Assembly (NCBI RefSeq): GCF_004959925.1
Contig: NZ_SPUW01000002.1
Location: 868,001 to 932,000 of the forward strand
Direction: 5' to 3'
DNA from: Pseudooceanicola onchidii
GTDB taxonomy: Bacteria > Pseudomonadota > Alphaproteobacteria > Rhodobacterales > Rhodobacteraceae
DNA: 64,000 bases
Below are positions 51,331-54,229 of this stretch, one piece after another; the first letter of the stretch is position 1, and each line of letters opens with the position of its first letter. The notes below the pieces were generated by a model. The model made no database searches. It was given only the letters and a program-made list of their open reading frames with translations, and was not told the DNA's origin. The position numbers were made by a program, and so were the translations under genes.

Positions 51331-52761
51331 TCAGGCCGCCGCAGCCATCCCGGCAAACACGGCCAGATCGTTGCGATAAAGCGCCGTCTCATCCTCCTGG
51401 CGCACTCTGTCGGGCAGGCGCAGCAGATAGGACGGATGTACCGTGACCAGCACCGGGCCGTAGGGCGTGGCTTCGATCTGCCCCCGGCGTTTCAGCAATC
51501 CGTCCCGTGATCCCGTCAGCGCCTGCAGCGCCGTGGCCCCCATGGAAAGGATCATCTTCGGGTGAACCAGCTGCAACTCAAGATCCAGCCACCAGCGGCC
51601 GTGTTCGATCTCGGTCCGGTTTGGCGGCATGTGGATGCGCCGTTTGCCCTGCCGCCTGAACTTGAACTGCTTCACCGCGTTCGTGACGTAAGCCCCTGTC
51701 CGATCAAGCCCCGCCTCGGCGGCGATCCGGTCAAACAGCTGCCCGGCAGGGCCGACAAAGGGCCGACCGGCCTGATCCTCATGATCGCCCGGCTGTTCGC
51801 CGACGATCATGACCTGGGCCGTCTGCGGCCCTTCGCCCAGGATGATGCGGCCGTAGCCTTCGGGCAGATCGCGGCTCGCCTCTTCGGCGCGGGCGCGCAT
51901 GGCGTCAAAGCTGAGCTCGGGCAGGTCCCTGGGCTGGTGCAGGCGATCCAGCACCCGGGCCGCCCGCAACGGCGGCAGGGTCGGCGCGGTTTCGGCCATT
52001 TCGCGCACGCGGGCCTCGGCCCCCGCGATGAGCGCGGGGATGTGCTTCGCCTCGGGCATGTTCTTCCAGTATTTCCGGGGCATCTCGGACTGCATGGCGC
52101 TGATCTTGACGCGCGCCGGGTTGAAGATGTTGCAGAAATACGTCTCCCACAGCTGTTCGGCGCCGTCTTCGGGCAGGTCGGGCTTTGCCTGGCCCGGGGC
52201 GAAGGTGACGCGGCCGTTTTCGTGGCGGGCGGTGACGTGCGGCGTGGCGATCACCCAGTCCATGTCGGCGAAACGGCGCGCGAAAAAGGGCGATGTGGGT
52301 TCCAGCGTGAAATGCGTCGGTTCGAACCAGGCGGCAAAGCGGCGGCGCCCTGTCGTGCCCTGGGCGATGTCGCGGAACCGGACAAACGCTTTCATCTTGT
52401 GCGCGCAGCGACGCACGTTTTTTTCCATGCCGTTCAGTCGGATCAGATCCGGATCGGCCGTGTCGCGCATCAGGGCGGGCCGGTCCCGCAGCCGCCAGAG
52501 AAAGGCATAGAGCCGGGCAAAGCGTTCAGGATCGCTGTGCCAGACCACCCGGCGCGACAGATCGACGAAGGGTTTCGGCACCGTCAGCGGGGTCACCATC
52601 GCCGGGTTCGGCGCAGCCGTTGCGCCGAACAGGTCGGTCTGCGGGGCATCGCCATGCGTCCACAACAGCGCCTCGGGCGGCGTGCCCTGGGCCAGATGCG
52701 CGCGCGCGGCGTCGCGCCAGGCGATATCGGTGCCGATCATGGGAAGGTGGACGGTCTGCAT
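51331..52761 (-). CDS. DUF4130-UdgX fusion: uracil-DNA-binding repair protein
   Basis: 476 residues. The N-terminal half (about 1-240) is a DUF4130 domain (LWRLRDRPALMRDTADPD, EKNVRRCAHKMKAFVRFRD, FAAWFEPTHFTLE, FFARRFADMDWVI). The C-terminal half is UdgX, a family 4-type uracil-DNA glycosylase relative: VMIVGEQPGDHEDQAGRPFVGPAG, YVTNAVKQFKFRRQGKRRIH with His377 as the residue that bonds covalently to the abasic site in UdgX, and VTVHPSYLLR. The TTG at 52782 would add seven residues; ATG 52761 is chosen. It lies 40 bases behind the radical-SAM gene and is probably in its SOS operon. Confidence 0.9.
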   Translation of the reverse strand: MQTVHLPMIGTDIAWRDAARAHLAQGTPPEALLWTHGDAPQTDLFGATAAPNPAMVTPLTVPKPFVDLSRRVVWHSDPERFARLYAFLWRLRDRPALMRDTADPDLIRLNGMEKNVRRCAHKMKAFVRFRDIAQGTTGRRRFAAWFEPTHFTLEPTSPFFARRFADMDWVIATPHVTARHENGRVTFAPGQAKPDLPEDGAEQLWETYFCNIFNPARVKISAMQSEMPRKYWKNMPEAKHIPALIAGAEARVREMAETAPTLPPLRAARVLDRLHQPRDLPELSFDAMRARAEEASRDLPEGYGRIILGEGPQTAQVMIVGEQPGDHEDQAGRPFVGPAGQLFDRIAAEAGLDRTGAYVTNAVKQFKFRRQGKRRIHMPPNRTEIEHGRWWLDLELQLVHPKMILSMGATALQALTGSRDGLLKRRGQIEATPYGPVLVTVHPSYLLRLPDRVRQEDETALYRNDLAVFAGMAAAA

Positions 52762-52801: not shown

Positions 52802-54031
52802 TCAGAAAAGGGACAGCTGTTCGGGCGGCGGGGCAAAGCGGGCGCGCAGGTCCGCGCTGTCGGTCAGCGCTCCGGGTGACCAGTGGCGCAGGGTGATGAA
52901 GGGCCGGGCGTTCTTCAGGTTGGCCCCGATCCGGGTCAGGTCCTCGTAGGCCAGCGTGCGATGCCTGCGCGCGGTCAGGATGCGCTGCACGGTGCGGGTT
53001 CCGAACCCGGGCACGCGAAGAAGCAGTTGCTTTTCAGCCGTCTGGACCGGGACCGGAAACAGGTGACGGTTTTCAAGCGCCCAGGCGAGCTTGGGGTCGA
53101 GCTGCAGGTCAAGATTGCCATCGGGCCGTGCGGCCGTGATCTCGGTCGCCGAGAACCCGTAGAACCGCATCAGCCAATCGGCCTGGTATAGCCGGTGTTC
53201 GCGGATCAACGGAGGCTGGATCAACGGCAGTTTGGCGCTGCTGTCGGGGATCGGCGAAAAGGCGGAATAGTACACGCGCCGCAGGCCATAATCGCCGTAA
53301 AGGCGGGTCGATTGTCCGAGAATCGTCTGGTCGTTGGATCCGTCCGCGCCGACGATCATCTGGGTCGATTGACCGGCCGGCGCGAATTTCGGCGGCCGCT
53401 TTCCGGTGTGCGTCTTGTCCTTCGACAGGGTGCGTCGCGTCTTCACCCGCGCCATGGCCCCGCGGATGGTCGCGGGGGATTTTTCCGGCGCATAGGTCTG
53501 GACGGCGTGTTCGGTCGGCAGTTCGACGTTGATCGACAGGCGATCGGCATAGAGCCCGGCCTCGTCGATCAGCTCTTGCGTGGCGTCGGGGATGGTCTTG
53601 AGGTGGATGTAGCCCTTGAAGCCATGGTCCTGCCGCAGGCTGCGCGCGATCTGGACCATGTCCTCCATCGTTGCATCGGGCGACCGGATGATGCCCGAGG
53701 ACAGGAACAGCCCCTCGATATAGTTCCGCCGATAGAATTCCAGCGTCAGCGTCACGACTTCATCCGGGGTGAACCGCGCGCGTTTCGTGTTCGACGACAC
53801 GCGGTTCACGCAATAGGCGCAGTCATAGATGCAGAAGTTCGTCATCAGGATCTTCAGCAGGGAAATGCACCTGCCGTCAGGGGCATAGGCGTGGCAGATG
53901 CCCGACCCCTCCGTCGATCCAAGGCCGCCCTTGGTGCTGTCGCGTCGCGTCGTGCCCGACGACGCGCAAGAGGCATCGTAGCGCGCGGCGTCAGACAGGA
54001 TGGCCAGTTTTTCAGTCAGGGTCAGTGTCAT
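52802..54031 (-). CDS. Putative DNA modification/repair radical SAM protein
   Basis: 409 residues. The radical-SAM cluster motif CIYDCAYC gives Cys67, Cys71, Cys74. Before it is RRDSTKGGLGSTEGSGICHAY; after it VSSNTKRARFTPDEVV, FLSSGIIRSPDATMEDM and the SAM-domain strands; at the C terminus a helix-hairpin-helix DNA-binding region LLLRVPGFGTRTVQRILTARRHRTL. Its pairing with a DUF4130/UdgX partner is a recurring genomic arrangement; the chemistry is not known. The ATG at 54031 is right behind a -10 box, so the mRNA is probably leaderless. Frames reaching to 55324 are shadows of hss. Confidence 0.9.
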   Translation of the reverse strand: MTLTLTEKLAILSDAARYDASCASSGTTRRDSTKGGLGSTEGSGICHAYAPDGRCISLLKILMTNFCIYDCAYCVNRVSSNTKRARFTPDEVVTLTLEFYRRNYIEGLFLSSGIIRSPDATMEDMVQIARSLRQDHGFKGYIHLKTIPDATQELIDEAGLYADRLSINVELPTEHAVQTYAPEKSPATIRGAMARVKTRRTLSKDKTHTGKRPPKFAPAGQSTQMIVGADGSNDQTILGQSTRLYGDYGLRRVYYSAFSPIPDSSAKLPLIQPPLIREHRLYQADWLMRFYGFSATEITAARPDGNLDLQLDPKLAWALENRHLFPVPVQTAEKQLLLRVPGFGTRTVQRILTARRHRTLAYEDLTRIGANLKNARPFITLRHWSPGALTDSADLRARFAPPPEQLSLF

Positions 54032-54033
54032 GT

Positions 54034-54066
54034 GTTCATGATATGTTCTTGATTTGGGTCTATCAA
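54034..54066 (-). promoter_or_regulatory. SOS box and leaderless promoter of the radical-SAM/UdgX operon
   Basis: Minus strand: TTGATA (54066-54061), 17-base spacer, TATCAT (54043-54038), then GAACAC and the ATG at 54031. The alphaproteobacterial LexA site GAAC-N7-GAAC (GTTCATGATATGTTC on the plus strand, 54034-54048) covers the -10. Transcription should start at or next to the ATG, with no Shine-Dalgarno sequence. Confidence 0.85.
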
Positions 54067-54092: not shown

Positions 54093-54229
54093 GGAGGTGA
54101 TTTCATTGGTCCTGTCTGCAAAAGCGCTACGTGCGGCGTGTTGCCCCTTGTTTGAAGGGGCGCGTCGTTGCAGGAACGCGCGCGATACAGCCCGGCGTCC
54201 CGCCAAGGACCGCAGACAGGAGAGCCACC
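54093..54229 (+). promoter_or_regulatory. Putative regulatory leader of hss
   Basis: CCTGTCTGC (54111-54119) and GCAGACAGG (54212-54220) are perfect nine-base inverted arms; the right arm overlaps the start of the hss ribosome-binding site (ACAGGAGAG). Nested between are GCCCCTT/AAGGGGC (54143-54149 / 54155-54161) and GCGCGT/ACGCGC. Upstream, a perfect Shine-Dalgarno GGAGGTGA (54093-54100) is followed by ATT or TTG instead of ATG/GTG; from the ATT a 16-codon frame ends at TGA 54153, near the loop of the first nested hairpin. Pairing of the long stem would hide the hss site. Confidence 0.4.

Follow-up and report, generated by a model that had tools for sequence, protein, structure and literature searches.

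This locus raises the question of how a pair of genes for a radical SAM protein and a UdgX-type protein is controlled, and how its first gene is translated. Within the window, the whole stretch of 64,000 nucleotides that was analysed, the explanation that fits best, and that we regard as likely, has LexA repressing a sigma-70-type promoter that drives a two-gene DNA-repair operon; the transcription start is predicted at or near the A of the ATG, which would make the mRNA leaderless. The features concerned are as follows.

51331..52761, minus strand: gene 2, 476 aa, fusion of DUF4130 (TIGR03915) and UdgX (TIGR03914) domains, by profile matches
52802..54031, minus strand: gene 1, radical SAM protein, 409 aa, TIGR03916 (rSAM_link_UDG), by profile match
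54031..54029, minus strand: start codon ATG of the radical SAM gene, by direct reading
54031, minus strand: predicted transcription start, the A of the ATG, placed by the 6-base gap after the -10 and the conserved geometry
54034..54048, minus strand: LexA-type operator GAACATATCATGAAC, by direct reading; conserved in relatives
54038..54043, minus strand: -10 hexamer TATCAT, by direct reading and matrix score
54061..54066, minus strand: -35 hexamer TTGATA, by direct reading and matrix score

Operator and promoter at the start codon

Direct reading of the minus strand bore out the claim of the first-pass annotation that GTTC-N7-GTTC lies over TATCAT, 17 bases from TTGATA. The spacer between the two hexamers is 17 bases, the six bases GAACAC separate TATCAT from the ATG, and GAACATATCATGAAC, which reads GTTC-N7-GTTC on the plus strand, overlaps the entire -10. 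When the 110 bases upstream of the ATG were scored with a hand-made sigma-70-type matrix, this promoter reached 15.4 and the next best 6.2. The annotation had also seen no Shine-Dalgarno (SD) sequence before the radical SAM gene, and the pairing energy of -0.5 kcal/mol agrees, given the anti-SD 9-mer used and an SD threshold of -4.5 kcal/mol or lower. A three-codon frame (ATG AAC ACA TGA, 54028-54039) starts within the box and overlaps the true start codon; a transcript starting at 54031 would cut it off.

The bare motif was rejected as evidence. GTTC-N7-GTTC occurs five times in the window (mean of shuffles 1.62, with five reached in 2 of 100 shuffles) and 136 times in the 3.67-Mb genome, compared with 49 matches for the reversed pattern. 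Because the pattern is this common, the motif alone is weak proof, and the case rests on its position and conservation.

RecA-stimulated cleavage of LexA after DNA damage relieves repression of SOS genes. At this locus, LexA bound to the GTTC-N7-GTTC direct repeat would cover the -10 and keep RNA polymerase off, and damage would free the promoter through LexA cleavage. DNA damage probably induces the gene pair in this way, through a repressor site on its core promoter. Judged from the geometry, the first transcribed base would be the A of the ATG or a base no more than about two positions away; ribosomes would then initiate on a leaderless AUG to make the radical SAM protein, and the same mRNA would also serve for the DUF4130-UdgX protein.

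GTTC-N7-GTTC is listed as the alphaproteobacterial LexA operator (da Rocha 2008, per Table 1 of PMC9578287). This operon carries the same operator at its promoter, where, in contrast to lexA and recA, it overlaps the -10 and the predicted +1 coincides with the start codon. The operon is best read as a leaderless variant of the known LexA promoter type. Leaderless mRNAs with an AUG at the 5' end, as predicted for this operon, number 375 in Caulobacter, where they are translated with an efficiency similar to that of leadered mRNAs (passages of PMC4117421), and 171 in Sinorhizobium meliloti (passages of PMC3616915). Judged by the listings, the literature on leaderless mRNAs together with LexA or DNA damage yielded no alphaproteobacterial SOS case; "LexA" does not appear in the main text of the transcription start papers PMC10469942, PMC4287350, PMC4117421 and PMC3616915, "uracil" does not appear in that of the SOS papers PMC13384398, PMC9578287, PMC12907096 and PMC4211646, and "radical SAM" is absent from that of three of the latter four. 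The predicted leaderless start of this operon is thus undescribed as far as these searches go, and LexA-linked leaderless genes may be known elsewhere, given that mycobacterial and Deinococcus literature exists.

Conservation and competing explanations

The relatives comprised 80 named loci together with 14 genomes, the window's own being one, out of 60 near ones; they gave 92 unique upstream regions. The gene family was also detected in Caulobacter vibrioides, which served as a control genome. The duplicates L044 and L116 were left out of the promoter-gap, SD (this gene) and box-distance counts, L044 being kept in the gene-2 counts, and L063, which has no called start, was left out of all four. 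In agreement with the earlier annotation, the box is kept in these genomes, and the geometry of -10 and ATG proved to be conserved as well. An exact box lies within 150 bases upstream in 91 of the 92 regions, the window among them and L051 being the exception; near the start codon of five loci (L066, L090, L103, L177 and L178) the operator is flipped, with GTTC-N7-GTTC on the coding strand. Distances from box end to start codon form two clusters, one of 1-7 bases (73/91), in which the box covers the predicted -10, and one of 13-18 bases (16/91), in which it is mostly confined to the spacer, upstream of a separate -10. In 78 of the 91 copies the -10 of the best promoter is separated from the start codon by 5-11 bases, and these include 64 of the 73 in the near cluster and 13 of the 16 in the far one, indicating that the ATG follows the -10 and not the operator; 13 of the 91 have no best promoter at such a gap. 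Gaps of 4-9 bases occur in 68/91 copies (74.7%) versus 7.7% in mononucleotide shuffles, and the commonest gap, six bases (46/91), is also that of the window, although the loci are related and these counts are not independent events. Many related bacteria share this arrangement of an operator on the core promoter with a predicted start at the first letter of the ATG.

LexA specificity, instead of a -10, may account for the TAT that is conserved within the box. The only arguments to the contrary are the 16 spacer-type copies and a TTG 16-18 bases before the box; across 72 box-aligned regions, this TTG (-18 to -16) is the sole part of the preceding 30 bases to exceed 0.5 bit.

A wider view was obtained from 398 genomes drawn evenly from the phylum, 84 of which, the window's own included, hold the gene above the cut-off. 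The upstream regions of all 84 copies were analysed, 55 from the window's class, which the named relatives identify as Alphaproteobacteria, and 29 from other classes. Within the class, an exact GTTC box lies within 150 bases in 55/55 copies and CTGT-N8-ACAG in 0/55. Upstream of the 29 copies from other classes the GTTC box was found in none, and exact CTGT-N8-ACAG occurs in 19 (13 of these 9-17 bases before the start), rising to 24 with at most one mismatch; neither LexA-type operator was found in the remaining 5/29. The E. coli LexA operator is given as TACTG(TA)5CAGTA (PMC9578287, Table 1). That other classes carry a different LexA operator at the corresponding position argues strongly for SOS control maintained by selection, and provides a separate line of evidence for the gene pair as an SOS target. 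With the box in 55/55 copies of the class and the E. coli-type operator in 24/29 elsewhere, SOS control of the gene pair is well supported from comparative sequence data.

Leaderlessness does not appear to be universal within the class. Seven of the 55 copies, which all belong to family f31, look leadered: their box sits 81-84 bases upstream and an SD-like AAAGGG is present. Two further copies have the box 24 and 35 bases away. The SD threshold is passed by 15/55 copies, namely 8 of the 9 with a box at least 24 bases away and 7 of the 46 others. Another point against the preferred reading comes from an ImuB-like gene, which has GAACATATCATGAAC 16 bases away from its ATG.

These data bear on three other explanations. 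One of them keeps SOS control but assumes a leader, with an upstream promoter, LexA acting as a roadblock at the ATG, and translation from an SD-less start or from an upstream in-frame ATG (54106). The reading frame is indeed open upstream in the window, AGGA stands close before the ATG at 54106, and the f31 copies lend such a layout some precedent; however, the promoter at the ATG is by far the best-scoring one, and nothing in the 30 bases before the box of the 72 aligned regions other than the TTG exceeds 0.5 bit. In-frame stops also occur within 24 codons upstream in 54/90 relatives and within 8 codons in 39/90, which means that the extension has not been conserved as coding sequence. A start at 54106 was judged unlikely, and the leadered explanation as a whole is improbable. 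Lower still do we rate SOS control with a leader of about 3-12 bases, which would be too short for an SD sequence and functionally near leaderless: the distance from a -10 to the first transcribed base is variable by a few positions, and gaps of 8-11 bases are present in 22/91 relatives (many Rhizobium-type, with a 15-base spacer), but the gap of six in the window is the most frequent one. A chance coincidence of box and promoter, to which the 136 bare matches in the genome might point, is very hard to reconcile with the box in every class copy and another LexA operator in 24/29 copies of other classes, and can practically be set aside. The LexA-repressed promoter with a start at or near the ATG remains our preferred reading.

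The radical SAM and DUF4130-UdgX proteins

Gene 1 matches TIGR03916, a putative DNA modification/repair radical SAM protein, with 574.5 bits (curated cut-off 343.5), and the three cysteines of its cluster motif C67-X3-C71-X2-C74 (CX3CX2C) are invariant in 30 aligned proteins. The description of the locus as a radical SAM/UdgX operon holds in that the two genes are adjacent, while the fusion partner of UdgX is DUF4130 and not the radical SAM protein. The intergenic gap in the window is 40 bases by coordinates. In all 79 named loci whose start was called, gene 1 is followed by gene 2, at gaps of -4 to 336 bases (56/79 at -4 or -1), and this adjacency in relatives is the basis for reading the pair as an operon. 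Pairing of TIGR03916 with TIGR03915, as seen in the window, is presumably typical. The neighbour upstream of gene 1 is divergent and encodes saccharopine dehydrogenase domains.

SOS control of this gene pair is already in print and is not new; COG4277 in that literature is, we assume, the same family as TIGR03916. Passages of PMC8565304 present evidence from Bacteroidetes for LexA control of a COG1573-COG4277 operon, likewise of two genes including a UDG, and cite reports of the same SOS control in Verrucomicrobia and Alphaproteobacteria (Erill 2016 among the citations); those passages do not mention a leaderless start, which is predicted here. DUF4130 has been linked with SplB-like radical SAM proteins and UDGs (passages of PMC3765255).

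The UdgX part of gene 2 carries both motif A (GEQPG) and the R-loop KRRIH, motifs shared with Mycobacterium smegmatis UdgX (PDB 6ail and others), to which gene 2 shows 42% identity and a TM score of 0.82 by target length. Unlike the M. smegmatis protein, the UdgX domain of gene 2 sits behind DUF4130 and is encoded after a radical SAM gene. The KRRIH R-loop carries the cross-linking His (PMC10359453). Among UDG-bearing gene-2 proteins, 7/25 have exact KRRIH and 23/25 keep its His; in L091 and L094 the UDG domain is present with the His replaced (by Gln and Pro, respectively), and cross-linking may be lost there. Aligned gene-2 proteins without a UDG domain amount to 5/30. Gene 2 is short (261-292 aa) in 9/79 loci (L036, L039, L044, L057, L062, L077, L078, L088 and L099), and the five of these that were aligned lack the UdgX domain but retain the radical SAM gene and the box.

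A fold search with the radical SAM model (mean pLDDT 75.7) returned only radical SAM folds among the 50 matches listed, including HydG, LIAS, MiaB and HydE, with TM scores by query length of at most 0.43; as these matches have many functions, the chemistry does not follow from structure prediction. For gene 2, UDG-superfamily structures lead the 50 matches listed, none of which informs DUF4130. Family membership suggests that both proteins act on DNA, and the probable role of this broadly distributed and biochemically uncharacterised repair pair is to recognise and process DNA bases that are damaged or of the uracil type.

Comparison with other SOS genes

SD matches of the radical SAM gene are at background, unlike those of recA and lexA. 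An SD energy of -4.5 kcal/mol or lower was obtained for 8.8% of 91 radical SAM genes and 11.2% of their shuffled upstream regions, as against 84% of 25 recA genes (best 30 of 57 genomes with a match, minus 5 loci without a called start) and 83% of 30 lexA genes (best 30 of 49 loci over the cut-off). The corresponding values are 24% of 29 for a PA0069-type radical SAM gene (best 30 of 41 over the cut-off) and 14% of 29 for mmcB (best 30 of 45), one locus without a called start being left out of each, and 8.9% of 79 for gene 2. In 13/14 recA loci of the window's genus and family the box precedes the start by 49-74 bases, and it is further off or absent in more distant loci; for lexA the distance is 20-57 bases in 26/30, the exceptions being 7, 86, 149 and none. 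The lexA gene with the box at 7 bases (L284, genome G043) has no SD and is perhaps leaderless itself, unlike the other lexA genes of this set. In mmcB of relatives the box lies 11-13 bases before the start in 20/29 loci and none was found in 6, and PA0069-type boxes lie 11 to 37 bases before the start, with none found in several.

The genome of the window encodes LexA (185.2 bits), and its own lexA, whose box is 46 bases from the start, and recA both combine GTTC-N7-GTTC with a long box-to-start distance and a strong SD. From the 136 matches in this genome, 20 chosen box regions, mostly with AT-rich centres, were read, the names uvrA, uvrD, imuA, imuB and OB-fold being assigned by eye from translations. 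The best promoter lies at the ATG in the PA0069-type gene, the OB-fold protein gene and uvrD (gap 7 in each), and the second-best in mmcB and the ImuA-like gene (gap 6 in both), with promoter scores of 4.9-9.4 compared with a shuffle mean of 5.6 and 95th percentile of 10.6; single cases within the shuffle range are weak. Among the regions read, lexA, recA, uvrA, a second uvrD-like gene and imuB lack a promoter-at-ATG arrangement. Four non-core SOS-box genes, at C1:1480331, C1:1246901, C1:575168 and C1:916279 (L134, L132, L014 and L127), have a possible -10 that ends 6-7 bases before the ATG, in contrast to lexA, recA and uvrA; taken singly their scores are weak, but mmcB retains its spacing in relatives.

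A speculative and rather doubtful extension is that alphaproteobacterial SOS regulons comprise two translational classes, a leadered core with strong SD sequences (lexA, recA and uvrA) and specialised repair effectors that are leaderless and have an embedded operator (this operon, the PA0069-type radical SAM gene, mmcB, the OB-fold protein and the ImuA-like gene). It is weakened by the own-genome scores, which, this operon apart, all fall below the 95th percentile of the shuffles. If such a split were true, damaged cells could rely on 70S initiation to make effectors even while ordinary initiation is impaired, or alternatively the split might set the timing or noise of effectors; if effectors of this sort generally had leaderless starts, translation would join transcription in shaping SOS output. 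The identical 15-mer GAACATATCATGAAC also occurs at C2:617435-617449 (L140), where an ImuB-like gene without an SD has its ATG 16 bases further on.
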